From contig OZ026599.1 in NCBI GenBank assembly GCA_964020085.1, positions 29,171,033 to 29,235,032 on the forward strand: a stretch of DNA of 64,000 bases. Reading direction: 5' to 3'. Shown one piece after another: positions 1 to 22,667 of this stretch. The DNA is from Micromussa lordhowensis. Lineage: Eukaryota; Cnidaria; Anthozoa; Scleractinia; Lobophylliidae. Below the pieces are notes generated by a model. That model was not told the DNA's origin. It did no database searches and was given only the letters and a program-made list of their open reading frames with translations. The translations under genes and the position numbers were made by a program. Within the stretch, counting starts at the first letter, position 1. Every line of letters begins with the position of its first letter.

Positions 1-660
1 AATTTGACATAGCTCGGCTCCACGGGCTTTTTGAGAGGCGCGGTTTGCAGCAAACTATTGTGCTAGGTTGGCACTTTAAGGAAATGCTTGTTACGACATG
101 ATGGCATTCGCGCCAGGGTGTTTTTTTTGGCCTTCTTTTTGCAAGGGGTTTGGCCTGCTCCCAACTTTGCAGAATTTCAGAAAACGCGCGCTGGGGGTCC
201 CCTTGGCAAATTTGACATAGCTCGGCTCCACGGGCACTTTTAGAGGCGCGGTTTGCAGCAAAATGTTCTACTAGGTTGGCACTTTAAGGAAATCTTAGTT
301 AGGACATGATGACATTCGCGCCAGGGTGTTTTTTTTTGGCCTTCTTTTTGCAAGAGTTTGACCTGCTCCCAACTTTGCAGAATTTCAGAAAACGCCCGCT
401 GGGGGTCCCCTTGGCAAATTTGACATAGCTTGGCTCCACGGGCACTTTTAGAGGCGCGGTTTGCAGCAAAATGTTGTGCTAGGTTGGCACTTTAAGGAAA
501 TCCTAGTTAGAACATGATGGCATTCGCGCCAGGGTGTTTTTTCTGGCCTTCTTTTTGCAGGAGTTTGACCTGCTCCCAACTTTGCAGAATTTCAGAAAAC
601 GCACGCTGGGGGTCCCCTTGGCAAATTTGACATAGCTCGGCTCCACGGGCACTTTTAGAG
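1..660. repeat. Satellite array, left flank (207-bp monomers)
   Basis: About 3.2 tandem copies of the same ~207-bp monomer that fills the right side of the window. The landmark AATTTGACATAGCTCGG recurs at 1, 209, 417 and 625. The monomer is interrupted at 660 by the Polinton and resumes in register at 22668, so the element landed inside one monomer. No gene is seen here. Confidence 0.97.
655..660. repeat. Target-site duplication, left copy
   Basis: TTAGAG directly abuts the first base of the left TIR and is repeated exactly at 22662-22667 after the right TIR. A 6-bp duplication is the standard Polinton insertion signature. Removing the element and one copy restores an uninterrupted satellite monomer. 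Confidence 0.95.
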
Positions 661-4400: not shown

Positions 4401-5232
4401 AATTTTTTGAAAAAAACCCTGCTAGAGAAGTAATGACATCAAAGTGGGCATCATGCATCAACAGCATAAGTTGCTTCTGTCGTTCAGGACCTTTGTACAC
4501 GATACTATGTCCATGTTCAGCAGAAATAACTATGATTTGATAATCATTTAAGATTGCTTGAAATTGTGCGATTTCTTTGAGTCCACATGGTCCTATAGTG
4601 ACACCAGCTTGCGAATGTAATTCTCTTGCTTGCGTTTCTTGACTTTCACGTCCTCTCTTTATGTTATTATATTCAGTGCTGTTGTCTACTTTCGCTCGGG
4701 CTGTTACCAGAGCTCGAGCACAACAAAGTTCATCTTTGTTTTGGATGACGATGACACTTTGTTTCTTTTTAAGTAATTCGGTGTAGTTGTCCATGCCGAA
4801 TTTCCATCTTCTTTTTCCTGTACCAGGTTCTGGCATTTTAACGTGTGTGATATCTAATTGTAAAGTGTCATCCACTTCAAAGTTTTCGTTCGAGTTCAAC
4901 ATTTTTGAAATTTGATTCAAAATTTGTCTCGAAACCCCCATGGTGTCTCTCCAACCACTCACACTGACAGGTGCTGAAGTGTGAGCACTTCGTAAGCGAT
5001 TCGAACTCAAATAAAGTTGAATTCTATCATGATCTGGCAAGTCTTCTATCAAATTGTCTATGGCATCTGTCAATCCTTCTTCAAATTCTCTTACTATGTT
5101 AGCATGTCTTGTAGGTCGTGTTTCTGGTGGGTTGGTCACACGTAGATGATAAGAGGTTCTTCTCAATCCATAGCTTCTTGCTGTTCTGTCTCGGAATTGT
5201 TCTAAATTGAACTTGAAAAAACGATTAGCCAT
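1420..5232 (-). CDS. PolB: Protein-primed family B DNA polymerase (pPolB)
   Basis: This is the replicative polymerase of the element, about 1270 aa. With numbering from the start chosen here, the zinc-binding N-terminal zone has many Cys/His pairs at about 280-400. The 3'-5' exonuclease motifs are FDIEA near 424, HNxxGYD near 482-488 and YCQSD near 609-613. A PD-(D/E)XK/Vsr-like insert follows (D near 721, EFQGCFYHGC near 732-741). Polymerase motifs are A, DVTSLYP near 842-848; B, KLMLNSFWGKFG near 1029-1040; and C, YFDTDS near 1126-1130. All catalytic acidic residues are present. The frame runs 31 codons further upstream to ATG 5325, but a TATA box (CTATAAAAC, 5279-5287 reversed) lies inside that extension. 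The downstream start AAGATGG at 5232 is 47 nt beyond the box, so I prefer it. The partner at the other side of the promoter is the 180-aa gene at 5451. Confidence 0.95.
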   Translation of the reverse strand: MANRFFKFNLEQFRDRTARSYGLRRTSYHLRVTNPPETRPTRHANIVREFEEGLTDAIDNLIEDLPDHDRIQLYLSSNRLRSAHTSAPVSVSGWRDTMGVSRQILNQISKMLNSNENFEVDDTLQLDITHVKMPEPGTGKRRWKFGMDNYTELLKKKQSVIVIQNKDELCCARALVTARAKVDNSTEYNNIKRGRESQETQARELHSQAGVTIGPCGLKEIAQFQAILNDYQIIVISAEHGHSIVYKGPERQKQLMLLMHDAHFDVITSLAGFFSKNYFCLSCERGYFHDNIKEHNCNGKKCFACHQVDCDDFKRKLNEVPEIKCTYCNRRFYGAICQTNHLIRTASGQSADHHKKKSLCQSHKLCSECGKNKNRKHVCGENECLSCKKTVNLQQHKCYIQCSDLDEDAYDDENETHPVFVYFDIEARQDTGNHIANLVCAETDQDGEKHSFYGDTCLEEFLKWVHSVANQEDIEKVIVVAHNFKGYDGYLILEELYRQHVTNLNLIVTGAKILSAQLPNVKFIDSMNFFPMALANFPKTFGLKELKKGFFPHFFNTVENQNYKGPIPDVHYYDPDGMSPSKREEFLKWHESKVKANYMFDFQQELLTYCQSDVRLLKEGCMNFQREFKAMIGFNPMRHCITIASACNVAYRRNWMPENKIAIEPMYGWRPAHIQSMIALEWLYWEENKLKHEEQTPRIAHARNRGERRLKHGAFNDFLVDGYDEQTKTVYEFQGCFYHGCLECFPNRQQNHPKHNNKSMHMVRLQTKQKVEKLQELGYTVIEMWECQWNDLKKNNQDIGNFVSKLKLTTALNPRDAFFGGRTNAIWLHHKVKEDEEIHYMDVTSLYPWANKNMEYPIGHPEFIDQPKTTNIDRYFGVIKCDILPPYELYHPVLPYRQGKKLTFPLCRTCVETESVKPIRERNMHCNHTLEERTLTGTWCTPELNKAIDKGYTIKYIYEVWHFKEKSTDLFRKYIDTFLKLKQEASGWPGECQTEEDRAKYVTDYQKHEKIQLEPQKICKNPGKRQLAKLMLNSFWGKFGQRSNLTQVTTCDKPDLFFQILQDDSQLIHRIEIMNEEMVEIFHSFQQECDPIQINVNIFIACFTTCYARLKLYEALDQLQEQVLYFDTDSVVYVWKPGQTCITVGNYLGEFTSELQEGDHIQEFVAAGPKNYAYVTKNGETCCKVRGFTLNTRGQQVLNFTSMKDLVLTEILEPENETRTLTLNNPHKIVREAATKKIKTVEQDKQYKLVFDKRILDMNTFKSYPYGYKQ

Positions 5233-5278
5233 CTTCTCCTTCTTATTCAAATGTGATTTTTTTGAAGATTGTCGACCT

Positions 5279-5415
5279 GTTTTATAGTATATATTTGTAC
5301 CATGTGACCTATCACGTGACCTCATATTGAGAATGGGGGATACCCCCCCATCCCCTCAGTAGGTCATGTGACCCTATGACGTAGACATCACGTGTTATAT
5401 TATTCTTTATATAAG
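5279..5415. promoter_or_regulatory. Divergent promoter 1 (E-box/CRE-like modules, two TATA boxes)
   Basis: Lies between PolB (-) and the 180-aa gene (+). TATA boxes are CTATAAAAC (reverse of 5279-5287) and CTTTATATAAG (5405-5415). Between them is module 1 (about 5310-5359: CATGTG, CACGTG and a G5/C7 palindrome-like tract) and module 2 (about 5362-5402: GTCATGTGAC, TGACGTAG, CACGTG). Both modules recur in the promoter at 17055-17193, with module 1 inverted and module 2 direct. The CACGTG/CACATG sites are typical of bHLH-ZIP factors (USF/MiT), and TGACGTAG resembles a CRE half-site. Confidence 0.8.
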
Positions 5416-7544: not shown

Positions 7545-7901
7545 ATGGCACGAGTGAAGAATACTACGAAGGAGTGGATGTGGAAACGTATTTGGAATGG
7601 TATGGATGGTGATAGTGTTTACTCGGTTTGGAAAAATGAGGAGGATGATTCTACAGTGATTTTGTTTGATCCTAAAGCAGTTTTTACAGACCAAATACAA
7701 GATACTACATCAGAGTTCACTATGTATCATTTTATTGCTCACATGGAAAACATGCGGATGAAGTTACCAGAAGAAGATTTTATCAATCACAAAGAATGGG
7801 TATTTAACAAGTACCCAAACAAGGTTCCCACTTTTAGGCAACTTCTTAGAGGATTAGTTAATTGTTTGTTGACCTGTGTGGCTAGATCGTTTTTAAGATG
7901 A
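7545..7901 (+). CDS. Unknown 118-aa protein, first ORF of the integrase unit
   Basis: No family recognised. The frame is open further upstream, but the TATA box at 7492-7500 makes ATG 7545 (ATTATGGCA, MARVKNTTKEWMW) the best start, 44 nt after the box. An in-frame ATG at 7503 is too close to it. The protein is basic at the N-terminus and acidic/aromatic in the middle, and has a hydrophobic C-terminal segment (L-V-N-C-L-L-T-C-V-A). Its TGA overlaps the integrase ATG (ATGA, 7898-7901), so translation of the two may be coupled. Confidence 0.7.
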   Translation: MARVKNTTKEWMWKRIWNGMDGDSVYSVWKNEEDDSTVILFDPKAVFTDQIQDTTSEFTMYHFIAHMENMRMKLPEEDFINHKEWVFNKYPNKVPTFRQLLRGLVNCLLTCVARSFLR

Positions 7902-8980
7902 GTGCTAAAAAGAAGAAAAGATTGGATACATTACAAAGAAAAGTGATGAAAGTTTACTATGACCCGGCAAATCCTGGTAGTTATGGCGGAGTGGATCGAT
8001 TGAGAAAAGCTACAGGATTATCACTGAAAAAAATACAACCTATTTTGAGACGAAACTTAACTTACACTCTTCACAAGCCCGTACGGCGCAAGTACAGCAC
8101 GAATCCTACAGTTGCTTTATCCATCGATCATCAATGGGCAGCAGATTTAGTAGACATCAAGAATCTCAGTAAAGAAAATAAAGGATTCAAGTATTTACTA
8201 ACTGTGATTGACGTATTGAGTAAGTACGCATGGGTGGTTCCATTAAAGAACAAGACAGGTGCAGAACAAAAACGTGGATTTGAGTCTATTTTGAAAGAAG
8301 GACGTAAACCTATTCAACTTCAAACAGACAAAGGTAGTGAATTTTACAACAAGACATTTCAAGCTTTTTTAAAAGACCAAGGTATTCATCATTTCAGTAC
8401 TCAAGGTGAAACCAAAGCATCGACTGTAGAACGATTTAACAGAACCCTAAAAGAACGGATGTATCGTGCTTTCACAGCCAACAACACTCTAAAATACTTG
8501 TGGATGTTACCTGACCTTGTCAAGAGTTATAATGCGTCCGTTCATGGTTCTATTAAAATGGCACCAGAAAATGTGAACATGTCCAATGATGAAAAAGTTT
8601 GGAAAACCTTGTACAAGAAAAAACTAAGTCAACGTCCCGTGTATAAATTCTTGCCTGGAGATAAAGTGAGAATCAGTAAAGTGAAACGCACATTCAAAAA
8701 AGGCTATCTACCAGGTTGGACAGAAGAAATCTTTATTATTGATCGTATTCTAAATTTACCAGTACCAGCGTACCGAATAAAAGAATACGATGAAACGCCC
8801 GTGGAAGGTGCATTTTACGAACCAGAATTGCAAAAAGTCAATATAAAAGAAGATGATTTTTTCAGAATTGAAAAAGTATTAAAGCGACGCGGTGATAAAG
8901 TTCTCGTTCAATGGAAAGGTTGGCCTAGTAAGTACAACAGCTGGATTGAGCGTAAGCAACTGGTATTACCACCATTATGA
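7898..8980 (+). CDS. INT: Retroviral-type integrase with C-terminal chromodomain
   Basis: A 360-aa protein that inserts the replicated element and makes the 6-bp target duplication. N-terminal residues 1-60 are basic and helix-turn-helix-like; the rve catalytic core spans about 70-230. The catalytic triad is D83 (WAADLVDI), D144 (LQTDKGSEF) and E178 (STVERFNRTLKER), with 33 residues between the last two. A basic SH3-like segment (K-F-L-P-G-D-K-V-R-I) follows, then a chromodomain at about 321-352 with W339, W342 and W349 (VQWKGWPSKYNSW). Chromodomains of other mobile-element integrases recognise methylated histone tails, which fits the heterochromatic satellite insertion seen here. The gene is joined to its neighbours by ATGA overlaps on both sides. 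Confidence 0.97.
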   Translation: MSAKKKKRLDTLQRKVMKVYYDPANPGSYGGVDRLRKATGLSLKKIQPILRRNLTYTLHKPVRRKYSTNPTVALSIDHQWAADLVDIKNLSKENKGFKYLLTVIDVLSKYAWVVPLKNKTGAEQKRGFESILKEGRKPIQLQTDKGSEFYNKTFQAFLKDQGIHHFSTQGETKASTVERFNRTLKERMYRAFTANNTLKYLWMLPDLVKSYNASVHGSIKMAPENVNMSNDEKVWKTLYKKKLSQRPVYKFLPGDKVRISKVKRTFKKGYLPGWTEEIFIIDRILNLPVPAYRIKEYDETPVEGAFYEPELQKVNIKEDDFFRIEKVLKRRGDKVLVQWKGWPSKYNSWIERKQLVLPPL

Positions 8981-10098
8981 CTTTTACTATAACATTACCA
9001 AGTGACGCAAGTACCAGTATCTTTCCAGATAATAAAACCAATAACTACAAAGTCAAACTGGTCAATGAAATTCGATTAACAGAAGATGATTGGGAAGTGG
9101 CACTTCAAACGATTTCATTTCCAGACACAGAATCAGTGCTTAAAAGTTCCCTGCTTGGAAAGTATCCGTTTGTACAAAAGGTAGTTACACACTTTTCTGG
9201 TACATTCGGCGAAAACGCTGATGGTTCACCTAATCTTGAAGATCCAATTGGTTTGGCTAATAATGCATTTTATGTACGTGAGTCTCTTTTGGATCTAGCA
9301 GACAACCCAGTCAGAGATGGATTGTCATTTTGGAAAAAGATAATTCAAAGGACCAACTATGAATTCAATACCGGTCTACAACCTGACGAATTATTTACCA
9401 ATGTCACTGGGGATACAGGAATGCCTACTTACAAATGGGTGGAACGTGGAAATCAATTTGATTTGATGATAGACAATGACTCACTTCATTTATTAAATGA
9501 AGGTTCTTACACAGACATTAGTCTACCCTTAGCAGAGGCTTTTGGATTAGTCAAAGAAGCTCGTGATAGAGCTGGAAATACTTTCTGGATTCTCGGTGAA
9601 TCCATTGAACTAATACATACTACTAAGCGAGGACCTAAAGTACCGGATCCTGCAGCATATGGTGTGGTAGAGGTCCCTGGAAATCGTCGTGGAAGGTTTT
9701 GGAAAGTGATGACAAACGTTTCGACGATTTTAGGTGAGAGACAAGATTATCTAAGACTTTATGGATTTTGTAATTGGTACATCACAGACATCAATTCCAA
9801 TTTCGAGAGAATCTTTGGAAATGAAACTCGAACATTGTTCATTTACACCGACGTCGCTCAACCACAGATCGTGGGTGGAAAGCAAACAGACATGATCAGA
9901 GAAGTCGTGTACACTAACAAGTTTAAAGGGCGTAGTCAATTTGAACCGTTACATTTACAGTTCATTCCCATCAGAAAGAACGTCTTTGACACCATTGAAG
10001 TAGCTGTTAGTGAAGCAGATGGGCAATTAGCGGATATTAGAGGTGGTTCAACAATTTTGACATTACTATTCAAACGGAGAAGTGAAAAATTGCTATAA
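8977..10098 (+). CDS. mCP: Minor capsid protein (penton-type)
   Basis: A 373-aa protein matching the Polinton/adintovirus minor capsid family. The N-terminus has the family-like LPSDAS...FPDNKTNNYKVKL and DDWEVALQTISFP. The C-terminus has FIPIRKNVFDTIEVAVSEADG followed by a strand-rich end. It is expected to form the five-fold vertices of the particle with a jelly-roll fold. The start overlaps the integrase stop (ATGA, 8977-8980). The stop codon TAA is itself part of the CTATAAAA box of the next gene. No internal breaks are seen. The assignment rests on sequence pattern, length and position. Confidence 0.85.
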   Translation: MTFTITLPSDASTSIFPDNKTNNYKVKLVNEIRLTEDDWEVALQTISFPDTESVLKSSLLGKYPFVQKVVTHFSGTFGENADGSPNLEDPIGLANNAFYVRESLLDLADNPVRDGLSFWKKIIQRTNYEFNTGLQPDELFTNVTGDTGMPTYKWVERGNQFDLMIDNDSLHLLNEGSYTDISLPLAEAFGLVKEARDRAGNTFWILGESIELIHTTKRGPKVPDPAAYGVVEVPGNRRGRFWKVMTNVSTILGERQDYLRLYGFCNWYITDINSNFERIFGNETRTLFIYTDVAQPQIVGGKQTDMIREVVYTNKFKGRSQFEPLHLQFIPIRKNVFDTIEVAVSEADGQLADIRGGSTILTLLFKRRSEKLL

Positions 10099-11439: not shown

Positions 11440-11478
11440 AAAAAAGAGACTTTTGCAACATTCATTTTTATTGACGAG

Positions 11479-12900
11479 ATGGCACAACCCATTCCAGCCC
11501 ACGAGGCATCCGGTCAAACCGAAAATGCCGTTTTGGACCTTTTCACGGTTCCTGCAACGGATACATCCATTCACAGTTACAGGATGGTGACCATTGATCC
11601 TACAAGCCGTAGCATTAATCCAGTGGAATTCAATATTCCTGGAGGTCGTGATTACATAGATCTTTCACGAAGCTATTTTAAAATGGAATTAAAATTGCTC
11701 GAAGGTGGTGGGGGCAATATTGCGGATGCAACAAACACGTGGCTAGCATCTAATGCGTTTCATACAATCATCAAACAACCCTCAGTTTATCTCAATGGCA
11801 CTTTGATCACAGAGCAGACCGACACGTATGCGTACAAAGCGTACTTGGAGACCATCCTAAATTATGACAAAGAAGCCGCTGAAACCTACTTGGAACCGCA
11901 AGGATTCTACTCAGCCTTGGATCACACACCGGAAATAACCGCAACCAATATTGACACTGCAGCCAATGGAGGAAATGGTCATGCTGACTATGTAGCATTG
12001 AGTTCTGAAGCCAAAAAAGCGTTCGTCAATGCGTTTAAGTTGAAAAATAGAATTAAAGATGGAAAAACCCTTCAATTGCTTGGGAAGCCACATATTGACA
12101 TTTTCCAAGTGCGGCGTTTATTGGTGCCTTCAGTGGATCTCAAGATGCGGTTCACATTGAATGAACCGTCCTTCTTCTGCAACGGTATTGTAAATACCGC
12201 TCAACTAACTCAGGAGAATTTCAAAATGGAGTTCATCGCTTGCCTTGTAAGAGTCAGATCTGACAAGTTCAATGACATCTCAGAAATGAGATTGAGGCAA
12301 ATGAAATCTGTGTATTACCCAACAGTGCGATCAGAAATCAGATCATTCACCATCCCAACCAATACCCGTACTTGGGAAGAAACAGACATCTTCAATGGAC
12401 GTATTCCAGATCGTACCATAGTAGGATTAGTGCACCAAAATGCATACAATGGTGGTTACAAATGGAATCCATTCTCATTCCAAAAGTTTGGAATTAAAAA
12501 TATTAAACAAATCATTGAAGGGGAAGAATATCCCGATGAAGCCCTAGAAATGAATCATGACAATGGTCAACTAGACATGGAAGGCTATTACCGCCTGATT
12601 ACAGCTGGTTGTCTGAATGAAAATGGAAGAAGTATGTTAGGTTACGAGCATTGGGGACAAAACAAAAACACTACATTGTTCATGTGGAATAATGTGGCTT
12701 CAGGCTGTCAAGAAAGTGATGACCTTAACCCACGACAACAAGGACGGTTAAAGATCTACTTGCAATTGGGGGCTAATGTCAATCATGGCATCACTGTCAT
12801 TATTTATGGTGAATTTGAAAACATGTTGGAAATAAAACCCACCGGCAGTGTGCAATACGACATTTACAGGCAACAGATGATAGTGGGTAGAGTGGATTGA
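11479..12900 (+). CDS. MCP: Major capsid protein (double jelly-roll)
   Basis: A 473-aa protein from ATG 11479 (GAGATGGCA, MAQPIPAHEAS). It carries the N-terminal signature of Polinton major capsid proteins: LDLFTVPATDTSI, then NPVEFNIPGGRDYIDLSRSYF. A strand-rich body follows, with WLASNAFHTIIKQPSVYLNGT in the first barrel region and a C-terminal strand (INHG-type, ITVIIYGEFENMLEI). Length agrees with double-jelly-roll capsids of this group (about 450-500 aa). It forms the hexon-like trimers of the particle. The gene has its own TATA box and is followed 12 nt later by the protease gene. Confidence 0.93.
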   Translation: MAQPIPAHEASGQTENAVLDLFTVPATDTSIHSYRMVTIDPTSRSINPVEFNIPGGRDYIDLSRSYFKMELKLLEGGGGNIADATNTWLASNAFHTIIKQPSVYLNGTLITEQTDTYAYKAYLETILNYDKEAAETYLEPQGFYSALDHTPEITATNIDTAANGGNGHADYVALSSEAKKAFVNAFKLKNRIKDGKTLQLLGKPHIDIFQVRRLLVPSVDLKMRFTLNEPSFFCNGIVNTAQLTQENFKMEFIACLVRVRSDKFNDISEMRLRQMKSVYYPTVRSEIRSFTIPTNTRTWEETDIFNGRIPDRTIVGLVHQNAYNGGYKWNPFSFQKFGIKNIKQIIEGEEYPDEALEMNHDNGQLDMEGYYRLITAGCLNENGRSMLGYEHWGQNKNTTLFMWNNVASGCQESDDLNPRQQGRLKIYLQLGANVNHGITVIIYGEFENMLEIKPTGSVQYDIYRQQMIVGRVD

Positions 12901-12912
12901 AAAAACAAAGAC

Positions 12913-13458
12913 ATGGAATTCATACCATTTTCCACCACTCAATTGGAGTATCTTGCTAAGGACGATCCCATACTGAAACCGATTTTTAAAGGAGTCTTCG
13001 CCTCCGATCAATTACCTCAAAAACCAGAATTTATCAAACCTTGTGCCTACATTGTGAACACGGATCCCATTAAGGAAGTTGGTAGTCACTGGTTTGGTAT
13101 CTACACGGAACAAGGCAAATGTGAAGTGATGGACAGTTACGGAGTACCATTAAATTGGTACAGTCGATCCTTGGTCGTACCTTGGGTGATGGATAATTGG
13201 GAAAGCATATCAAGCAACGCCAAATCATTACAAGAACTAAATTCGAATTCATGCGGACAATACGCATTGATGTATCTCAAGTACCGATGTCGTGATAAAA
13301 GCATGGAAGATTTTACTGGGCTGTTCAGCAACGATTATGTGGCAAACGATCATAAAGTGGGGAACATGATTAAAAAAGAAATTAAACAGAGTTTAAAAGA
13401 TATTGCTTATTTACCATGTCAACAGTATAATTTTACCTGTTGTTATATTGATATATAA
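12913..13458 (+). CDS. PRO: Adenain-like cysteine protease
   Basis: A 181-aa maturation protease. Catalytic residues are in the adenain order: H59 (GSHWFGIY), D74 (MDSYG) and C114 (NSCGQYALMYL), with Q107 seven residues before the Cys as in adenain (oxyanion hole). It should cut core and capsid precursors at GG-type sites, and candidates are visible in the small basic proteins next door. The start is ATG 12913, 12 nt after the capsid stop with no own TATA box visible, so it probably shares the capsid transcript. Its stop codon TAA forms part of a TATATAA box for the ATPase. Confidence 0.95.
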   Translation: MEFIPFSTTQLEYLAKDDPILKPIFKGVFASDQLPQKPEFIKPCAYIVNTDPIKEVGSHWFGIYTEQGKCEVMDSYGVPLNWYSRSLVVPWVMDNWESISSNAKSLQELNSNSCGQYALMYLKYRCRDKSMEDFTGLFSNDYVANDHKVGNMIKKEIKQSLKDIAYLPCQQYNFTCCYIDI

Positions 13459-13496: not shown

Positions 13497-14144
13497 ATGA
13501 GTGTCTGTGAGTCTTTTATGTTCCGAAGCCCTTGCAGCATATTGGTGGTGGGACCATCCAGTAGTGGAAAAACCGTATTCGTGGAACGCTTGTTACGAGA
13601 AAGAAACCAATTCTTTCACGGGAACACCTCTAAAGTTTATTATTGTTACGGAGCCTGGCAAGATAAATTTCATGGAATGAAACAGCGAGGCATACGATTT
13701 CATAAAGGCATTCCAACTGTCGAAGACATTCATAAATGGTTCAATGGGGGAGGAGTACTGATATTAGATGACTTGATGGATGAAGGTGGGAATGATAAGA
13801 CTATCTTGGATCTATTTACGAAACATTCTCATCACAATAATGTAACAGTACTATATCTCTGTCAAGACATGTTCCCACCAGGAAAATATGCCAAAACCAT
13901 CTCTAGAAATGCACATTACATCGTGGCGTTTAAAAATCCAAGAGATCAATTGGGGGTAAAAAATATGGTGTTACAAGCTTATCCTAGTGATTGGGAAGAT
14001 GTCTTAGGAGTATATAGGGACGCCACAAGTCGGCCTTATGGCTATCTCATATTCGACTTTCATCCTAATAGTGACGACGAGAAAAGACTGATAGCCAATA
14101 TATTACAAGGAGAAGGCTTTACTACCACTTATACCTCATCATGA
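13497..14144 (+). CDS. ATP: FtsK/HerA-type genome-packaging ATPase
   Basis: A 215-aa protein expected to pump the genome into the capsid. Walker A is GPSSSGKT at 19-26 with K25. Walker B is GVLILDD with D91/D92. A downstream VLYLCQD segment gives the sensor-type polar residue. Length and motif spacing fit the A32-like ATPases of Polintons. ATG 13497 (CATCATGAGT) is chosen because the frame has no ATG further upstream and the TATATAA box lies about 37 nt before it. It overlaps the next ORF by ATGA (14141-14144). Confidence 0.95.
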   Translation: MSVCESFMFRSPCSILVVGPSSSGKTVFVERLLRERNQFFHGNTSKVYYCYGAWQDKFHGMKQRGIRFHKGIPTVEDIHKWFNGGGVLILDDLMDEGGNDKTILDLFTKHSHHNNVTVLYLCQDMFPPGKYAKTISRNAHYIVAFKNPRDQLGVKNMVLQAYPSDWEDVLGVYRDATSRPYGYLIFDFHPNSDDEKRLIANILQGEGFTTTYTSS

Positions 14145-14676
14145 GTGCTAAAAGTAGTACCGACAATGAAATTCAACGCTACAATACGACGTTTTACAAT
14201 CAAGCGCAAGCCCAAGGTTTTGATGTCGACAGCATACTGGATAGAGAATATCCATCCCCATTATCTCCAGTATCTCCTTCATATGGTCGCTATGACATTG
14301 ATATAATATTTGAGCGAATGACACAATCTCCAAAAACATCAACACCAAAGAGCTCTACTCCAAAAACATCAACACCAAAGAGCTCTACTCCAAAAGCACC
14401 AACATCAGGATCATCACCTGCGGGTGTGGGTTCACCTTCCCCCATTCCCCTATCTGCCTCATTTTATGGATCAGGACCTTCCCCTTCATTGCGTTCAACA
14501 CCTCCAATTTCACCTTCAATATGGCAAAGACCGTTACGGCAAGTTAGAAAAAGAAGAGCGGTTCCAACATCACCTCCACCTATCACACCTCCTAGCACAC
14601 CGCGTGGAAGACCCTCCAAAGCCTTGAGAAGAGGAGGGGGTAGACGAAGACGTGGTGGCCCCGGCCGCGGCCCACC

Positions 14677-14732
<56 letters not shown>

Positions 14733-15013
14733 GCGGCAGTGGTGGTGGTGGCAGTGGTGGTGGTGGTGGTCCAGGTGGTAGTGGAGGTAGTAATGGATCA
14801 AGACGAAGTGACGATACACCCACAAGTAGTGTTAGACGTCGTTATCGTCAACAAGATTTACTACGAGAATTACAAAGACTTCAACAGCAAAACATTCAAA
14901 AAATGCAAGGAAGGCAAATTTCAGGAGTTACACACACCAATACCATCACCACGACCTACAAAGATGGTGGAAGACCTAGTGTAACACGTTCGAGTAATTC
15001 ATTCTCACCATAG
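14141..15013 (+). CDS. Low-complexity Ser/Pro/Gly-rich protein (290 aa)
   Basis: No family recognised. In order: an ordered-looking start (1-60), a Ser/Thr/Pro region with an 18-residue TPK repeat block (about 65-86), a Pro-rich segment, a basic patch (R-Q-V-R-K-R-R, 133-139) and a second basic patch (A-L-R-R-G-G-G-R-R-R-R-G-G). Then follow a nearly pure Gly tract (about 180-218) coded by GGC/GGT repeats and a polar helix, possibly coiled coil (D-L-L-R-E-L-Q-R-L-Q-Q-Q, 239-250). The tail is Thr/Ser-rich. It could be a tegument-like or phase-separating virion protein, but that is only a suggestion. It starts within the ATPase stop (ATGA), so the two are likely co-translated. Confidence 0.75.
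14330..14389 (+). repeat. Two exact 30-bp tandem repeats in coding sequence
   Basis: The unit CCAAAAACATCAACACCAAA plus GAGCTCTACT occurs at 14330-14359 and again at 14360-14389, followed by a partial third copy. Being a multiple of three it keeps the frame and lengthens the Ser/Thr/Pro/Lys segment. Confidence 0.9.
14678..14794 (+). repeat. GGC/GGT trinucleotide expansion coding polyglycine
   Basis: Dense GGC repeats pass into GGT/GGC and AGT codons, giving an almost uninterrupted Gly tract in the 290-aa protein. This is the most GC-rich stretch of the element and likely to vary in length between copies. Confidence 0.9.
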
Positions 15014-16024: not shown

Positions 16025-16030
16025 ACAATT

Positions 16031-16396
16031 ATGGTTAGAGGAAGAAAACGAGCACCACGACGAGTATACAAACAATGGGGAGGAAGAAAAAAAGGATTCG
16101 ATATTCAAAAGATGATTGAAAAGACAGGAATTGAATTTCATTGGCCTGGATATCAATACATGGGACCTGGTACCAAACTAAAAAAACGTCTAGCACGTGG
16201 AGATCCAGGCATCAACCGTCTCGACCGTATTGCCAAGCAACATGACATTGATTATTCAAGAGCAAAATCTTTACAGGACAAATGGAAAGCAGACACAAAA
16301 ATGATCAAAGCCATTGATCAATTACCAGGCAAAAAAAAAATAACAGAACGTGTTGTTAAAAATATCATGAAAGCTAAGAAACGATTAAAATTGTAA
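16031..16396 (+). CDS. PLA2: Parvovirus-like phospholipase A2 protein (121 aa)
   Basis: The calcium loop YMGPGTKL (43-50) and the catalytic helix with H71-D72 (AKQHDIDYSRA) match the phospholipase A2 domain of parvovirus VP1 unique regions, which frees the incoming particle from endosomes. Intermediate residues D58-P-G-I-N and L-D-R also fit. The protein has a basic start (M-V-R-G-R-K-R-A-P-R-R), then Q15-W-G-G-R19, which follows the Q-x-G-G-x pattern and may be a protease site releasing the enzyme domain. Related domains are known in adintoviruses and other Polintons. It is the last ORF of the 15064-16396 unit. Confidence 0.9.
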   Translation: MVRGRKRAPRRVYKQWGGRKKGFDIQKMIEKTGIEFHWPGYQYMGPGTKLKKRLARGDPGINRLDRIAKQHDIDYSRAKSLQDKWKADTKMIKAIDQLPGKKKITERVVKNIMKAKKRLKL

Positions 16397-16520: not shown

Positions 16521-17018
16521 TCATTCTTGATTAACATATCTTGAACGACACAAATCACTCCATATATTCGCATGATAGTGTGTAACTAAATAGTTCGTGA
16601 TGGCACGCATGCGAGCCAAAGTCTGCTCCTTGTTACACCCCAGGAACATCACATCGGAGGTATTAGAGGTTACGTTCCACATTTCACCATAAAAATAGCC
16701 ATCGTTACCTCTCCATAAAGGACGATCACCCCATGCAGCTTTAGCGGCTCTCATAAACACGCGATCCTCGTAGAAAGGTTTGGACTCCATGGCGTTCTTG
16801 TAGTTGGAAACCATAATGTCAAAATTAACGCTGTTGATCCTGGTACGGCAGTAAGGGCATGTGATATCTGAGAAAGATTTGGTCTGCAGCTGTGTATGAA
16901 ACCACCGATCAATACAATTGTAATGAATCGGTTGTTGACAACAGGCGCTACTTGCTTCTGTGGTTGGGTAGAAGCAGATGATGCAATCGTCTTCTCCACT
17001 CGACATTGCGACACTCAT
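16521..17018 (-). CDS. RING-finger protein (165 aa), probable E3 ubiquitin ligase
   Basis: The RING domain is at the N-terminus. With numbering from ATG 17018, ligands are C12-x2-C15, C26-C27, H32-x2-C35 and C54-x2-C57, with the CCxxxxHxxCxxxW pattern (CCQQPIHYNCIDRW) usual in viral RINGs. The rest, with several Trp (A-A-W-G-D-R-P-L-W-R-G-N) and a C-terminal helix, is not recognised and may bind substrate. The frame is open six codons further upstream but has no ATG there. ATG 17018 lies about 40 nt beyond a CTATAAAG box (17056-17063 reversed). It is divergent from a second RING gene with the same finger pattern, so the pair may be an old duplication. Confidence 0.85.
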   Translation of the reverse strand: MSVAMSSGEDDCIICFYPTTEASSACCQQPIHYNCIDRWFHTQLQTKSFSDITCPYCRTRINSVNFDIMVSNYKNAMESKPFYEDRVFMRAAKAAWGDRPLWRGNDGYFYGEMWNVTSNTSDVMFLGCNKEQTLARMRAITNYLVTHYHANIWSDLCRSRYVNQE

Positions 17019-17054
17019 ACTAATAATGATGTTCAATCCCCCAAAATCGCCTTA

Positions 17055-17193
17055 GCTTTATAGTAAATAAAAACGTCATGTGACACTATGACGTAGACAT
17101 CACGTGGTCATATTAGGGGGATGGGGGGGTATCCCCCCTTCTCAATATGAGATCACGTGATAGGTCACATGACCTTAATAAATCCTATATAAG
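17055..17193. promoter_or_regulatory. Divergent promoter 2, built from the same modules as promoter 1
   Basis: Lies between the two RING genes. TATA boxes are CTATAAAG (-, 17056-17063) and CTATATAAG (+, 17185-17193). Module 2 (GTCATGTGAC, TGACGTAG, CACGTG; about 17074-17115) is in the same orientation as at 5362-5402. Module 1 (G/C tract, then CTCAATATGAG, TCACGTGAT and GTCACATGAC; about 17116-17174) is inverted relative to 5310-5359. Module 1 therefore faces PolB there and the RING cassette gene here. Confidence 0.8.
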
Positions 17194-17258
17194 AAGTAAA
17201 CCACCTTTGGAGATCATTTTCACAATTGTACGAAAACTCATTACGCTGAAAAACAAGA

Positions 17259-17696
17259 ATGGCTGGCCGTCAGAGTAAAAGACTTCGTCTGGAAGCACCT
17301 GAAATTCTACAAACCACTTTTCAATGTTTCATTTGTCATGGCACTTCATACACTTGCGATATGGGTACCATGCAGCTAGCCTGCTGTAAAAACTTTGTGC
17401 ATCAACGATGTCAAGCTCGATGGCAAGCTGAAGGAAGAAACTGTGGAATGTGTCGAGGATCCTTAACAACTGATGTGGTACTCAGCGCAGGTGAATCCAA
17501 TCCGATTCGATCAGAAGACATTGACATTCCTACGGATTCTCTAAACTTTGACGAGATCACCCATGAAGTCTTGTCCATGTCCCGCGAACAAGTGATTGCC
17601 AGATTGAGGGAATTATTGCAATCTGAAGAGTTAGAAGAACAACTACAACGTGTAAGTATTTTCTTCTTCTTTATCCCTATAAAAAAGTGGATCTAG
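17259..17696 (+). CDS. RING-finger head exon of an alternatively spliced cassette gene
   Basis: ATG 17259 (AAGAATGGC) starts a basic N-terminus (R-Q-S-K-R-L-R-L) and a RING: C23-x2-C26, C42-C43, H48-x2-C51, C62-x2-C65 (ACCKNFVHQRCQARW). Helical residues follow to L129-Q-R131. At 17652 the frame meets GTAAGT exactly after 131 complete codons (phase 0). Unspliced, the frame adds 14 codons and stops at 17696, making 145 aa. Spliced, it can join any of 11 downstream modules that all start in phase 0 after an AG. I therefore read it as a shared E3-ligase head with exchangeable C-terminal domains. The RING call is firm; the splicing is inferred from sequence. Confidence 0.85.
   Translation: MAGRQSKRLRLEAPEILQTTFQCFICHGTSYTCDMGTMQLACCKNFVHQRCQARWQAEGRNCGMCRGSLTTDVVLSAGESNPIRSEDIDIPTDSLNFDEITHEVLSMSREQVIARLRELLQSEELEEQLQRVSIFFFFIPIKKWI
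17652..17657 (+). promoter_or_regulatory. Consensus 5' splice donor GTAAGT
   Basis: CGT|GTAAGT follows codon 131 of the RING frame. In a scan of 17259-20979 I found no other GTAAGT; other GTs have weak contexts (for example GTGAGG, GTAATT, GTGGGG). One strong donor followed by many acceptors is the basis for the alternative-acceptor model. Confidence 0.75.
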
Positions 17697-17733
17697 ACCT
17701 TTTTTAAAAATATTTTTTTAAAAATTTTTTCAG

Positions 17734-17940
17734 ATGAGCACTATAGAATTATCTACAGTGTTTGCATTCAGAAGATTTATAGAACAAGTGGGGATACAAT
17801 ACATTTGGATGCAATACAGTGATACAACTATTAGCTTTCGATTAGCCAATAATTATGAAGACATTCTTAATTTCTCATCTAATGCTGTTATAAGATTTAG
17901 TAGACATTTACTCCCTATTTTACTAGCTCTCTTTTACTAG
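17734..17940 (+). CDS. Cassette module A (alternative C-terminal exon)
   Basis: Opens in phase 0 directly after a long T/A tract ending TTTTTTCAG (17731-17733 is CAG) and runs 68 codons to TAG. It begins MSTIELSTVFAFRRFIEQV, then a strand S-F-R-L-A, Y-E-D-I-L and a hydrophobic end L-L-P-I-L-L-A-L. It starts with ATG, and CTATAAAAAA (17677-17686) lies 47 nt upstream, so it might also be expressed alone. It is a close paralogue of module B. Confidence 0.65.
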   Translation: MSTIELSTVFAFRRFIEQVGIQYIWMQYSDTTISFRLANNYEDILNFSSNAVIRFSRHLLPILLALFY

Positions 17941-17958
17941 CTCTTAAATTTTTTTCAG

Positions 17959-18153
17959 ATGAACACTATAGAATTATTTACAGTGTTTGCATTCAGAAGA
18001 ATTATAGAGCAAGTGAGGAATTACATACAGCAACAATACAGTGATGCAACTTTTAGCTTTCGATTAGCCGATGGTTATGAAGATATTTTTAATCAATCTA
18101 ATACTGTTCTAAGTATTCATTTACTCCCTCTTTTACTAGCTCTTATAAATTAA
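17959..18153 (+). CDS. Cassette module B, recent paralogue of A
   Basis: Phase-0 opening after TTTTTTTCAG (CAG 17956-17958), 64 codons. It begins MNTIELFTVFAFRRIIEQV and matches module A over its whole length apart from small gaps in the middle, with the same end (L-L-P-L-L-L-A-L). The A/B pair shows that the array grows by tandem exon duplication. It also begins with ATG, but no TATA box lies just before it. Confidence 0.65.
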   Translation: MNTIELFTVFAFRRIIEQVRNYIQQQYSDATFSFRLADGYEDIFNQSNTVLSIHLLPLLLALIN

Positions 18154-18163
18154 TTTTTTTCAG

Positions 18164-18481
18164 TTCAGTCATCGTCAAGCTAGATTAGCTTGGATTTATG
18201 CATGGTGTATAGACCAACTAAATGAGCAAAGACCTGCACATCAAGTACACTTTATAATTGGAAATAACGATTTCCGTGATGTTGCAAATATGATCAGTGC
18301 AAGACTAACAGGAAGATCTCTCATTCGATATTTTAATACATCTGTTATTGATTTTGATCATTTTTGTATTAGTTATCATCAAATAATTTCAATAACTTCC
18401 ACTGTAGAAGAACTCGAAAGAACTATCAAAACTATTCATAGTAATGAAGTGTTTGCTGAACTCTTTTCTTTAGTTCGATGA
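18164..18481 (+). CDS. Cassette module C
   Basis: Phase-0 opening after AATTTTTTTCAG (CAG 18161-18163), 105 codons. It begins FSHRQARLAWIYAW. Pattern: helix, strand V-H-F-I-I-G-N-N-D, helix V-A-N-M-I-S-A-R-L, strand V-I-D-F-D-H. No ATG near its start, so it needs splicing to be translated from its beginning. Its last codons (CTTTTCTTTAG) contain the acceptor of module D. Confidence 0.65.
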   Translation, partial: FSHRQARLAWIYAWCIDQLNEQRPAHQVHFIIGNNDFRDVANMISARLTGRSLIRYFNTSVIDFDHFCISYHQIISITSTVEELERTIKTIHSNEVFAELFSLVR

Positions 18482-18785
18482 TCAAGATCGAGCAGCTTTG
18501 TTACTCTATAAACGTGCATTAACAAGGATGGATCCTTTTAGACAAGAATATCGTGTGAATCCACAAATCATATTTGTTAATACCAGGACTTATGGATCTC
18601 ACATTTTCAATAACATGGTGCAACATCTAACAATACAACATCGTTACATTCCTGTCTCAGTTATTGAATTTGAACACCCTCCCACCTATTATAATAATAA
18701 TCAGATCATATTGTCATGGTATAAAGATTTCAGAGCATACTATGATAATCAAATCAGTAGATTCAGTACACCACTTTTTCTTTAA
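18474..18785 (+). CDS. Cassette module D
   Basis: Phase-0 opening after CTCTTTTCTTTAG (TAG 18471-18473), in a different frame from the end of C, which it overlaps by 8 nt. 103 codons beginning FDDQDRAALLLYKRAL. Pattern: helix, strand Q-I-I-F-V-N-T, helix N-M-V-Q-H-L, strand V-S-V-I-E-F-E-H. The first ATG is 16 codons in. Confidence 0.65.
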   Translation, partial: FDDQDRAALLLYKRALTRMDPFRQEYRVNPQIIFVNTRTYGSHIFNNMVQHLTIQHRYIPVSVIEFEHPPTYYNNNQIILSWYKDFRAYYDNQISRFSTPLFL

Positions 18786-18816
18786 TTTTCTTTAATTTTT
18801 AATTTTAATTTTTCAG

Positions 18817-19107
18817 TGCACCCTGAGAGAACAAAGATGTCTATGCATTTACTATATTCATTTATGTAATTTACGCGTGAACAACTACCTTGTGCTCGTT
18901 ATGGGAGAGCAGAATTTTATCACATTGATTGATCGAATTACCGATAAGGTTACTGTTACGGACGAGATCTCAATTGACTTTCATCCTATACAATACTCAG
19001 GTGCTCCATATTTTATTTTTTTTCATAATCAAATGCGATTCGACACCTATGGGTTAATCATGGGTCACACGAGATCAGACTTTCATTACTCATGGCATCA
19101 TGAGTAA
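18817..19107 (+). CDS. Cassette module E
   Basis: Phase-0 opening after a T/A-rich tract ending TTTTTCAG (CAG 18814-18816), 96 codons beginning CTLREQRCLCIYYIHL. A strand Y-L-V-L-V-M-G, helix L-I-D-R-I-T-D, strand I-S-I-D-F-H and strand Y-F-I-F-F-H follow the array's usual order. The Cys-rich start is unlike the other modules. Confidence 0.6.
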   Translation, partial: CTLREQRCLCIYYIHLCNLRVNNYLVLVMGEQNFITLIDRITDKVTVTDEISIDFHPIQYSGAPYFIFFHNQMRFDTYGLIMGHTRSDFHYSWHHE

Positions 19108-19158
19108 TGAATTAATCAACGTGATAGACTTAAATCTTTCTATTCTTAATTTTTATAG

Positions 19159-19434
19159 TTCATTCAAGGTTCACCATGGAAATTATTACGTGTGATTCAT
19201 AAATTGAGACACTACCCTTCTTGGGAAGAAGAGGAACAAGAAGAAGATCATTTTAGGTCCTGGACTAGACCAATTTTAAACTATGACATCTTTTGTAGAG
19301 ATCAAACTGTCGATTTTTTCCCAATATTACAAAATCTGACCCGGAAATTCATTGACGATTTAACTTTCGAGTTTGAAGTTCATTATTATAATACTACCAA
19401 TAATTTTAAAGCTTGGCTTTTTGTTAATTACTAA
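19159..19434 (+). CDS. Cassette module F
   Basis: Phase-0 opening after TTAATTTTTATAG (TAG 19156-19158), 91 codons beginning FIQGSPWKLLRVIHKL. It has an acidic insert (W-E-E-E-E-Q-E-E-D), then the strand-helix-strand pattern T-V-D-F-F-P, L-T-R-K-F-I and F-E-F-E-V-H-Y. The only early ATG-like start is weak. Confidence 0.6.
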   Translation, partial: FIQGSPWKLLRVIHKLRHYPSWEEEEQEEDHFRSWTRPILNYDIFCRDQTVDFFPILQNLTRKFIDDLTFEFEVHYYNTTNNFKAWLFVNY

Positions 19435-19454
19435 AGTTTTTTTATTTTTTTTAG

Positions 19455-19832
19455 TTTCCTTTTCGATTCTACAATCCACAACAAGTGAAACAGATCATAA
19501 AAACAATAATAGCCTTTGAAACAGGACCTGATATGAATTTGCAAGATCAAGCATTAGCAAGAAGAAGCCATCTTGTATTAGGACGGCGTAGATTTCATAT
19601 TGTTCTACGCGGTGGCTCCAATAACATTTCTCATTGTAAAAACCATATGAAAGATTTCATTCATTTTTTAAATCCTTTTCGTTTTTTTTTGTCATTGGAA
19701 TATCACACAGGATATTTTGATGATGAAGTCTACGAATTTGCTCACTTTGAACTTTCCTCATTCAGTCACAAATACAATCTATTTAATCAAACTTTCAATC
19801 ACTACAAAAGAAAATACACTTCATTTTCTTAA
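19455..19832 (+). CDS. Cassette module G
   Basis: Phase-0 opening after a run of T ending TTAG (19451-19454), 125 codons, the longest module. It begins FPFRFYNPQQVKQIIKTI; the PFR start is shared with I and K. A strand F-H-I-V-L-R-G-G-S, helix H-M-K-D-F-I-H-F-L and strand F-F-L-S-L-E-Y-H follow. Confidence 0.65.
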   Translation, partial: FPFRFYNPQQVKQIIKTIIAFETGPDMNLQDQALARRSHLVLGRRRFHIVLRGGSNNISHCKNHMKDFIHFLNPFRFFLSLEYHTGYFDDEVYEFAHFELSSFSHKYNLFNQTFNHYKRKYTSFS

Positions 19833-19853
19833 AAAATCATTTTATTTTTTCAG

Positions 19854-20189
19854 TTTGAATACACAGTACAAGTACAAGATCTAAGAAGAATGTTAACATT
19901 TATTCTAAATCATACCTTACATAATGAATACCTTGACTCCGACAGAAATCGCATTGTGTTCTATCTTAATGGACATGTACGTAATCGATATCAACGAGAT
20001 ATGTCAAGGCTCGCACAATTTATTTTACCTTTACATGTAGCATTTTATCTAACCCAAATGGGGAAACTATGTTTCATTTTTTCAGCAGCTGATGAAACTG
20101 CACCTGATTGGCTCCCAATCAATAAATATTGTTTAACATCATGTACTTACAATCACACTGATTTTCATGATTACAGACATTTTCATTGA
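19854..20189 (+). CDS. Cassette module H
   Basis: Phase-0 opening after TTTTATTTTTTCAG (CAG 19851-19853), 111 codons beginning FEYTVQVQDLRRMLTFIL. A strand R-I-V-F-Y-L-N-G-H, helix D-M-S-R-L-A-Q-F-I and strands H-V-A-F-Y-L and L-C-F-I-F-S follow. It ends in a His/Tyr-rich tail. Confidence 0.65.
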   Translation, partial: FEYTVQVQDLRRMLTFILNHTLHNEYLDSDRNRIVFYLNGHVRNRYQRDMSRLAQFILPLHVAFYLTQMGKLCFIFSAADETAPDWLPINKYCLTSCTYNHTDFHDYRHFH

Positions 20190-20222
20190 ATATAAAAAAG
20201 TTGATGCATGGTATTTTTTTAG

Positions 20223-20549
20223 CTCCCTTTCAGATTTCATGGAGGAAACATTTTATTCACCAAGGGAAACCTACTACCTAAAATCATAAATGAAATCATG
20301 ACTTGGGATCAATGGTCAGCCACCCTATCTAATAATTTAATAGTTCGATTTTATTTTTTAATAGTAGGTCCAAGAAATGGACCTATAAATAACGACATGC
20401 ATCAATTTTTTAATCTTTTAAGATTACCATTTCGTTATAAAATAAGAATCATTTGGAATCCTATTTCAATCTTAGGGGATGGTTGGATGGTATATAATGT
20501 AGAACGCATTTTGATAACATGTAACTCTCTCTCGTTATTTTTCAGTTAA
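20223..20549 (+). CDS. Cassette module I
   Basis: Phase-0 opening after GTATTTTTTTAG (AG 20221-20222), 108 codons beginning LPFRFHGGNILF. A second AG (CTTTCAG) 10 nt on would break the frame. Strand I-V-R-F-Y-F-L-I-V-G-P-R, helix D-M-H-Q-F-F-N-L-L and strand Y-K-I-R-I-I-W fit the array pattern well. Its last codons and stop (TTTTTCAGTTAA) contain the acceptor of module J. Confidence 0.65.
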   Translation, partial: LPFRFHGGNILFTKGNLLPKIINEIMTWDQWSATLSNNLIVRFYFLIVGPRNGPINNDMHQFFNLLRLPFRYKIRIIWNPISILGDGWMVYNVERILITCNSLSLFFS

Positions 20550-20647
20550 CCTTAGAAAGAAGATTACGATATGCTAGATTTAGACTTAACTTACGTCTAA
20601 TACGAGACGGTTACGGACACTTTGTACGAATCAATAACCCCTTTTAA
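20546..20647 (+). CDS. Cassette module J, short or truncated
   Basis: Phase-0 opening after TATTTTTCAG (CAG 20543-20545), only 33 codons (LTLERRLRYARFRLNL, then I-R-D-G-Y-G-H-F-V-R-I-N-N-P-F). It overlaps the end of module I in another frame. It may be a broken module keeping only the first helix and strand, or a short working tail. Confidence 0.45.
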   Translation, partial: LTLERRLRYARFRLNLRLIRDGYGHFVRINNPF

Positions 20648-20664
20648 AATACTATTTTTTACAG

Positions 20665-20979
20665 TTGCCTTTCAGAATTCATCATATTAAAAATTTACAC
20701 AGATGTATTTGCCAAACACTTTTACGTGCCATTAATGATCCTAGAGGTGTCACTTTACATATTTACATAAACATGTTAGGACCTAGAACTAGACAGTTTA
20801 CTCAAGGTTCAATTTCAATGTCATTAGCAATGCACCATGTACATTACCTTTTACAATGTATGTTTATGCCTTGTCGTTATTCTATTCATTTATGCTGTGT
20901 TCCTCGCGGTAATACACTTTTCATTGCGGATTATCAAGTGTTATTCTATTGTATTCAAAAAGTGGAGACGACACATTAA
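20665..20979 (+). CDS. Cassette module K, last of the array
   Basis: Phase-0 opening after ACTATTTTTTACAG (CAG 20662-20664), 104 codons beginning LPFRIHHIKNLHRCIC. A strand T-L-H-I-Y-I-N-M-L-G-P-R, helix L-A-M-H-H-V-H-Y-L-L and strands Y-S-I-H-L-C and T-L-F-I-A follow; L-G-P-R is shared with module I (V-G-P-R). The next feature is the GTATAAAAA box at 20986. No AATAAA follows K before it, so the transcript end is uncertain. Confidence 0.65.
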   Translation: MPFRIHHIKNLHRCICQTLLRAINDPRGVTLHIYINMLGPRTRQFTQGSISMSLAMHHVHYLLQCMFMPCRYSIHLCCVPRGNTLFIADYQVLFYCIQKVETTH

Positions 20980-20985
20980 AAAATT

Positions 20986-20994
20986 GTATAAAAA
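20986..20994 (+). promoter_or_regulatory. GTATAAAAA promoter box
   Basis: Lies seven bases after the stop of module K and 38 nt before ATG 21032. Same form and spacing as the other TATA boxes. Confidence 0.6.
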
Positions 20995-21031
20995 CCATTT
21001 GTGTGTAGCGTCTTCAATTTATTTTTTCATC

Positions 21032-21232
21032 ATGGCACAAGCAGATGGAATGCTTACAGCGTTCAAACAATCCTATTCAGAAATTTTAACCCACATTGAA
21101 AGTATACAAATTCACTTGCAAGAAATAGAAGAAGAATTCCTTGAATTGGAATCCATCCTAGAGGAGGTAAATCAAAGAATCATTATGCAAAGAAAAAATG
21201 ATCCTGGTGTTGGTAGTAGCAATGGTGAATGA
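21032..21232 (+). CDS. Small coiled-coil protein (66 aa)
   Basis: Starts at ATG 21032 (CATCATGGCA, MAQADGMLTAF). Most of it is an acidic amphipathic helix with heptad-like spacing (I-L-T-H-I-E-S-I-Q-I-H-L-Q-E-I-E-E-E-F-L), so a coiled coil is likely. The frame is open upstream through hydrophobic codons, but these overlap module K and precede the TATA box. Function is unknown. A +1-frame ORF overlaps its end. Confidence 0.7.
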   Translation: MAQADGMLTAFKQSYSEILTHIESIQIHLQEIEEEFLELESILEEVNQRIIMQRKNDPGVGSSNGE

Positions 21233-22146: not shown

Positions 22147-22219
22147 TGCCACAGTGAGGATTCGAACCCCAACCTCAATGGCCACAACATTGCGTGCTAA
22201 CCATTAACACTACTGTAGC
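22147..22219 (-). tRNA. tRNA-His (anticodon GTG) or tRNA-His-like gene, 73 nt
   Basis: Read on the - strand, GCTACAG pairs with the 3' CTGTGGC (one G-T) to make the 7-bp acceptor stem. A-box-like GTTAATGGTTAGCAC forms the D arm, and CAATG/CATTG form a 5-bp anticodon stem around the 7-base loop TTGTGGC with anticodon GTG (His). A T arm with GGTTCGAATCC (B box) has 5 bp including one G-T. The discriminator is A, CCA is not encoded, and a T8 terminator follows at once. Layout resembles animal tRNA-His. The D arm is somewhat unusual, so it may be a tRNA-derived element rather than a working tRNA. Confidence 0.8.
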
Positions 22220-22488: not shown

Positions 22489-22661
22489 TGTTGTGCGCAG
22501 GCGCGACTCGGCCCCAGTAGCGCACTCGGTATTCAAGATGGCGCTGGAATGGAATGTGAGAATGGAATGTGCTAGCTGCATTCTGATTGGTCCATTTTGG
22601 TCACGTGGTATTAATCCTGCTCTCTGATTGGTTATGACCCAGAGGCGCGTACTGTACTACT
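22489..22661 (-). repeat. Right terminal inverted repeat (173 bp)
   Basis: Inverted copy of 661-833 ending TACTGTACTACT at 22661, with one mismatch. Similarity begins at TGTTGT (22489). It contains the same CCAAT boxes, E-box, YY1-like and NRF1-like motifs in inverted order. Confidence 0.95.
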
Positions 22662-22667
22662 TTAGAG
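22662..22667. repeat. Target-site duplication, right copy
   Basis: TTAGAG, identical to 655-660, followed directly by GCGCGGTTTGCAG, the normal continuation of the satellite monomer. Confidence 0.95.

Follow-up and report, generated by a model that had tools for sequence, protein, structure and literature searches.

The 64,000-nt stretch of DNA analysed here (the window), positions 29,171,033–29,235,032 of contig OZ026599.1 of the scleractinian Micromussa lordhowensis, contains a Polinton in which a single early-type gene probably encodes a putative RING E3 ubiquitin ligase with an exchangeable C-terminal domain, one splice donor choosing among several acceptors. In the proposed mechanism, one promoter would produce one pre-mRNA spanning 17.2–21.0 kb, and the donor of the RING head exon, at 17652, would be joined in cis to one of about eleven acceptors, each opening a module (m01 to m11; Table 1). 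Translation would stop at the chosen module's own stop codon and the modules downstream would become 3′ untranslated sequence; individual modules would therefore require neither a donor nor a poly(A) site. Nested 3′ co-terminal isoforms could arise from one donor in this way, with nothing required beyond the features observed. The tails would bind different ubiquitination targets, and the repertoire would diversify by duplication and divergence of modules and by exchange among copies. At the sequence level, the reading is supported by the coding behaviour of the modules as a set, the kept donor and acceptors, the match in phase, the head/tail boundary, and relatives with one or two tails; splicing itself, the nested transcripts, the ligase activity and the tail targets are what we infer.

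The original prediction described a RING frame reaching GTAAGT after 131 codons, followed by 11 modules that begin in phase 0 after a pyrimidine-rich tract ending in AG, end in their own stops and mostly lack a starting ATG. The 131 codons, the position of the donor and all 11 module starts were recovered exactly, together with the phase, the tracts and the stops. Only m01 and m02 start with an ATG, directly at the acceptor; in seven others the first ATG lies at codon 13 to 43. Gaps separating successive modules are 10–51 nt or negative, and caveats on the array are the shortness of m10 and the overlaps of m03 with m04 (8 nt) and of m09 with m10 (4 nt). A common-part/variable-part architecture was thus found at the sequence level, with a common exon and its donor followed by in-phase exons that each carry an acceptor and a stop.

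Acceptor-like sites were searched with a tight rule (T5-N0-2-YAG) on the plus strand from 17652 to 20979, and the longest frame opened by each site was scored. Twelve sites were obtained, 10 of them module starts (m04 was missed), and it was at these 10 that the longest frame was in phase 0 (binomial p = 5e-4). Nine of the 12 sites opened at least 60 codons; in 1000 shuffles that preserved dinucleotides, the mean was 0.04 and the maximum 1. As a control, the remaining 18.7 kb of the plus strand contained 4 tight sites, none opening 60 codons, and the element's whole minus strand contained 17, two of which opened at least 60 (22102, 108 codons; 2055, 211 codons). A looser rule gave 18 sites, including all 11 module starts; 11 sites opened at least 60 codons, as against at most 3 in shuffles, and one of these, at 17941, is no module start and reads into m02. 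Frame 0 had the best codon score among the plus-strand frames in 10 of the 11 modules.

A DNA search of the host genome (580.8 Mb, 1383 contigs) gave 14 matches, distributed over 13 places of which the window is one, and for the other 12 copies (L009 to L020) a stretch of about 4 kb each was compared. The donor context CAACGT/GTAAGT (the slash marking the junction) and the open head were identical in 13 of 13 copies, counting the window. Among 132 module-by-copy cells, 124 were located; those not located were five of L009, lying beyond the compared stretch (1.6-kb insertion), and three of L017, which are absent. In the script's count, AG preceded the module in 123 of the 124 located cells, the lone exception being the insertion case in m04 of L009, where the tract is present in another alignment. 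The same length and an open frame were kept in 101 cells, and among the other 23 are six copies that have lost 9 nt of m05 and some with small insertions in m07, changes that leave the open length about the same. In the nine copies that remained after L009, L017 and L020 were set aside, gap cells numbered 214 versus 2333 compared in the spacers, 174 versus 27231 in the modules and 0 versus 3537 in the head, and the AG bases showed 0 changes in 198 cells. Comparison of other copies for drifting acceptors and frames or for internal stops had been suggested as a check of the original prediction; acceptors and most frames proved to be kept, although a few module copies are broken.

Variation among the copies was uneven within m08. 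This module in L010, L012, L014 and L015 has 17–19 differences from the window, 13–14 of them within 19951–20100, whereas other 150-base bins of the array in the same copies have 0–4 and m08 in L011 and L013 has 1–2 over its whole length. The changes in m08 of L010 comprised 4 synonymous and 13 nonsynonymous ones. From this pattern, it looks like exchange or fast change of one module. Copies L018, L019 and L020 also have an extra tract upstream of m02, with a second acceptor-like site and an m03-like start. The insertion in m04 of L009 is approximately 1.6 kb long, carries a 17-bp repeat of 18521–18537 at its ends, and is probably a nested mobile element.

For the analysis of selection, each distinct codon change relative to the window was counted once over the 101 clean cells. 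The pooled modules had 52 synonymous and 79 nonsynonymous changes, with a neutral expectation of 3.22 nonsynonymous changes per synonymous one, giving an omega-like ratio of 0.47 in the proposed frame (binomial p = 5e-5). When the same differences were read in frames +1 and +2, the ratios were 1.15 and 0.93; that of the head was 0.31. By module, the ratios were 0 for m02, 0.39 for m04, 0.18 for m05, 0.58 for m06, 0.10 for m07, 0.31 for m09, 0.50 for m10 and 0.24 for m11, values resting on few changes and, for m05 and m07, on 3 of the 12 copies. Since purifying selection was specific to this frame, gaps were far commoner in the spacers than in modules or head and the AGs were constant, these comparisons indicate that, taken together, the modules are behaving like coding sequence in the acceptor-predicted frame.

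The head was identified as a RING domain by profile comparison. A profile of five head sequences (A1) matched 21 distinct sequences in PDB at E ≤ 0.1, the best being RLIM (2e-4); 20 of them are named as RING E3s, RING finger proteins or APC/C subunit 11, and the remaining one is EL5, which we take to be a RING protein as well. C23, C26, C42, C43, H48, C51, C62 and C65 were invariant in A1 with RING-like spacing (C-x2-C, C-C-x4-H-x2-C, C-x2-C), and these eight residues are the putative zinc ligands. The Pfam match of the head as a single sequence was weak (0.013, below the cut-off). Ubiquitin ligase activity is putatively assigned from the family. No relatives of the head were found in IMG/VR, GTDB genomes or phage records, and no DNA relatives in phage records.

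Relatives of the gene bear on the position of the donor. In a distant relative, L031, RING and tail lie in one unspliced ORF, and similar proteins are P0011–P0015; their RING head is 36% identical to that of the window, with a similar N-terminus and linker helix, and the window's donor coincides with the point where head passes into tail in the L031 protein. The codons for V-S directly follow the head in all four database relatives, down to 46% identity. In two other relatives, L035 and L037, the RING is followed by a pair of homologous tails, of which the second is preceded by an acceptor. This suggests a series from one unspliced tail to two tails to eleven. By eye, a phospholipase A2-like gene seems to lie 3′ of the RING gene on the opposite strand in L035 and L037, a gene order unlike that of the window.

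Homology among the modules was strong for m01 and m02, which are also homologous to the end of P0002, and suggestive for m07 with m09, m09 with m11, and m03 with m04. Leave-one-out profiles gave p = 0.01–0.02 for m03 in three of three alignments, a strong result for m07 in one of three, and little else; a helix-strand pattern common to the modules is an impression by eye. Database proteins matched m04 (P0008), m05 (P0009), m11 (P0010) and m08 (P0007, 91%), and P0005 (m07) and P0006 (m08) are entries marked as the window's own. Searches of the modules gave nothing above the cut-off in Pfam (9 of 11 submitted), no match up to E = 1 in PDB (profile A2), and only two single weak matches in PHROGs (best, 0.012).

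A number of observations weigh against one donor serving many terminal exons, and the first concern the donor itself. On a simple matrix, it ranked fourth among 152 GTs; higher-scoring ones lie in m02, in m01 and in the head (17491, phase 1), and weaker donor-like GTs lie in m05, m07, m08, m09 and m11, that of m08 being in phase 0 (19977, CAT/GTACGT). The absence of another donor from the array holds for GTAAGT, which is unique within 17001–21100, but not for other donor-like sites. A constitutive exon chain, also doubted in the original prediction, is unlikely because every module has its own stop, in spite of the weak donor-like sites inside some modules. More specific is the possibility that m01 and m02 are, or are also, internal cassettes, the head being spliced to their 5′ part (ending IEQ) and this to a later module, so that only the later ones would be terminal. 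The phase-0 sites CAA/GTGGGG (17788) and CAA/GTGAGG (18013) stand at matching places of these homologous modules; all 12 copies keep the site in m02, and 11 of them keep that in m01, L018 having GTGAGG there instead. However, across its full length m02 has 3 synonymous changes and no nonsynonymous one, and an open homologue of m01/m02, close to them in length, is retained in P0002, which makes the cassette reading highly improbable. The claim of one donor and many terminal exons is thus strengthened by the kept sites, the selection on frame, L031 and the two-tail relatives, and qualified at m01 and m02, which may be internal cassettes.

Other points concern the coding evidence. The codon score was below zero in 10 of 11 modules, so that support from codon usage is modest, and a reverse frame outscored frame 0 in four or five. 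Unchanged AGs are weak evidence alone, the copies being so close. When taken alone, m01 (2.75), m03 (1.25) and m08 (0.90) lack clear purifying selection. Broken cells were m01 of L015, m05 of L016 and L020, and m04 of L009 with its insertion, and L017 lacks m09–m11, similarity stopping at 20155. Such losses, together with selection that is uneven per module and m05 and m07 usable in 3 of 12 copies, would be expected of relics, that is, a decaying array with one or a few tails in use. The pooled purifying selection, the clean state of 101 of the 124 cells, and the way in which the indels of m05 and m07 about preserve the open length render decay a highly unlikely account.

The modules could also be individual small genes, each with a start codon of its own, read from RNA that is unspliced or polycistronic; the acceptor-like tracts would then be AT-rich spacers. 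This would agree with the ATG at the start of m01 and m02 and at codon 13–43 of seven others, and with the database proteins, P0005–P0010 having been called from starts inside or at modules, save P0007, called from a start before its module. Codons before the first ATG are the part of a module that splicing alone explains; in the nine modules without a starting ATG they had 13 synonymous and 24 nonsynonymous changes, a ratio of 0.59 that is in the expected direction and not significant (p = 0.13), and this too counts against splicing. Yet m06 and m10 contain no ATG codon, all 78 clean cells were free of stops ahead of the first ATG, P0007 keeps the 12 codons of m08 preceding its ATG, pyrimidine-YAG tracts concentrate at module starts, and the tail of L031 is joined to its head. 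Separate genes are therefore considered very unlikely.

The relatives leave further points on the same side. In L035 and L037 the donor was chosen by visual inspection; both carry a further GTACG that lies in a different phase, and L035 has other GT sites as well. No sequence relation was detected between the window's modules and the tails of L031, L035 and L038, and module pairs other than those named were not clearly above shuffles, leaving common descent unsupported for most pairs.

The block upstream of the head holds TATATAAG at 17186, and because it is common to both genes, the head gene and the DNA polymerase gene may share control. Since AATAAA occurs only once in the array (20121) and ATTAAA at 20686 and 20975, a shared 3′ end near 20975 fits better than one per module. 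Alternatively, modules might be transcribed from independent promoters and joined to the head in trans, as described for the variable exons of mod(mdg4) (PMC12692577). Four of the 11 modules have a TATA-like word in the 60 nt ahead of them, at 17678 (m01), 18144 (m03), 20191 (m09) and 20491 (m10), but AT-rich sequence often contains such words, the narrow or negative gaps leave little room for promoters, and it was ahead of the head that the block in common with the polymerase gene was found. Joining in trans is the least probable explanation weighed here.

The Polinton is inserted in a 207-bp satellite array of about 200 copies, which fills the rest of the window (1–654 and 22668–64000). Its terminal inverted repeats (TIRs; 661–833 and 22489–22661) have 173-nt arms that are 99% complementary, and TTAGAG bounds the element on both sides (655–660 and 22662–22667) as a 6-bp duplication. 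The Polinton/Maverick marker set was found by Pfam: polymerase B, rve integrase, adenovirus-like protease and packaging ATPase. No Pfam match was obtained for the ORFs 11464–12897 and 8980–10098, which we take, by position, to be the candidate major and minor capsid genes, and the former had no relatives in IMG/VR. The second RING gene shares the intergenic region 17019–17258 with the head gene. An ORF at 14144–15013 (+) has a long glycine run and S/P-rich repeats, and a tRNA-His (GTG) gene lies inside the element near its right end (22147–22219, minus strand; ARAGORN, Rfam). Copy L009 is located approximately 47 kb from this element, in the opposite orientation.

Table 1. Features of the Polinton and of the RING gene array; ends of modules include the stop codon
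Feature	Position	Strand	Remarks
RING head exon	17259–17651	+	ATG 17259; 131 codons; ends in phase 0
Candidate splice donor	17652–17657	+	GTAAGT; proposed for all modules
m01	17734–17940	+	68 aa; acceptor TTTTTTCAG; donor-like GTGGGG at 17788
m02	17959–18153	+	64 aa; acceptor TTTTTTTCAG; donor-like GTGAGG at 18013
m03	18164–18481	+	105 aa
m04	18474–18785	+	103 aa; weaker tract; 8-nt overlap with m03
m05	18817–19107	+	96 aa
m06	19159–19434	+	91 aa; no ATG codon
m07	19455–19832	+	125 aa
m08	19854–20189	+	111 aa; varies among copies, hotspot 19951–20100
m09	20223–20549	+	108 aa; LPFR start
m10	20546–20647	+	33 aa; no ATG codon; 4-nt overlap with m09
m11	20665–20979	+	104 aa; LPFR start; ATTAAA at 20975, may be shared poly(A) signal
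Upstream block	17117–17207	+	inverted 82% copy of block before DNA polymerase gene (5265–5355)
Polinton element	661–22661	.	TIRs and flanking TTAGAG
DNA polymerase B gene	1420–5202	-	Pfam DNA_pol_B_2 8e-47
Integrase gene	7895–8977		Pfam rve 2e-12; Chromo 1e-4, below its cut-off
Ulp1-type cysteine protease	12910–13455		Pfam Peptidase_C48 8e-6; Peptidase_C5 0.0065, below cut-off
Packaging ATPase, Pox_A32-type	13497–14141		Pfam Pox_A32 7e-6
Phospholipase A2-like gene	16028–16393		Pfam
Second RING gene	16524–17018	-	single ORF, divergent from head gene; PF13639 9e-6, 26.3 bits vs cut-off 27.3

The proposed gene can be compared with host and viral systems. In insects, lola, mod(mdg4) and Dscam splice a common part to one of many variable exons; those of Dscam are internal cassettes, and all three are host genes with BTB or Ig domains. 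The arrangement proposed here from sequence is similar in its common part and variable exons, but it lies in a mobile element and has a RING head, 10–51-nt spacers and no AATAAA per module. The early regions of adenoviruses, to which Polintons are thought to be related, and of papillomaviruses and polyomaviruses use one donor and several acceptors for overlapping 3′ co-terminal RNAs; there, only a few variable parts exist and as a rule they are unrelated proteins, whereas about eleven tails stand behind one RING head here. The element itself resembles other Polintons/Mavericks in polymerase B, integrase, protease, ATPase, TIRs and 6-bp duplication. The L031 and P0011–P0015 genes are alike in the RING head, but with one tail in the same ORF they need no splicing. 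The design is known from insect genes and, in a simpler form, from DNA viruses. A search of titles and the starts of abstracts, which covered few subscription papers and not the principal adintovirus paper, found no report of splicing in a Polinton RING gene, and the arrangement appears to be new for a Polinton.

At somewhat better than even chances, this Polinton lineage has a RING repertoire made by splicing, with a fixed head and about eleven substrate domains, which would have grown from one tail to two to eleven while tails such as m08 changed or were swapped. How large alternative-exon arrays originate could then be tested over a short span of time, and the tails could serve as probes for the host proteins that such elements deal with. 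If the isoforms exist, the 22-kb element fits a candidate ubiquitin ligase family into 3.7 kb by splicing. The spliced gene proposed here would contrast with intact vertebrate Mavericks, whose genes are described as intronless (PMC8097293). Such a gene would amount to a compact viral version of the diversity seen in Dscam, directed at numerous proteins of the host or of competitors.

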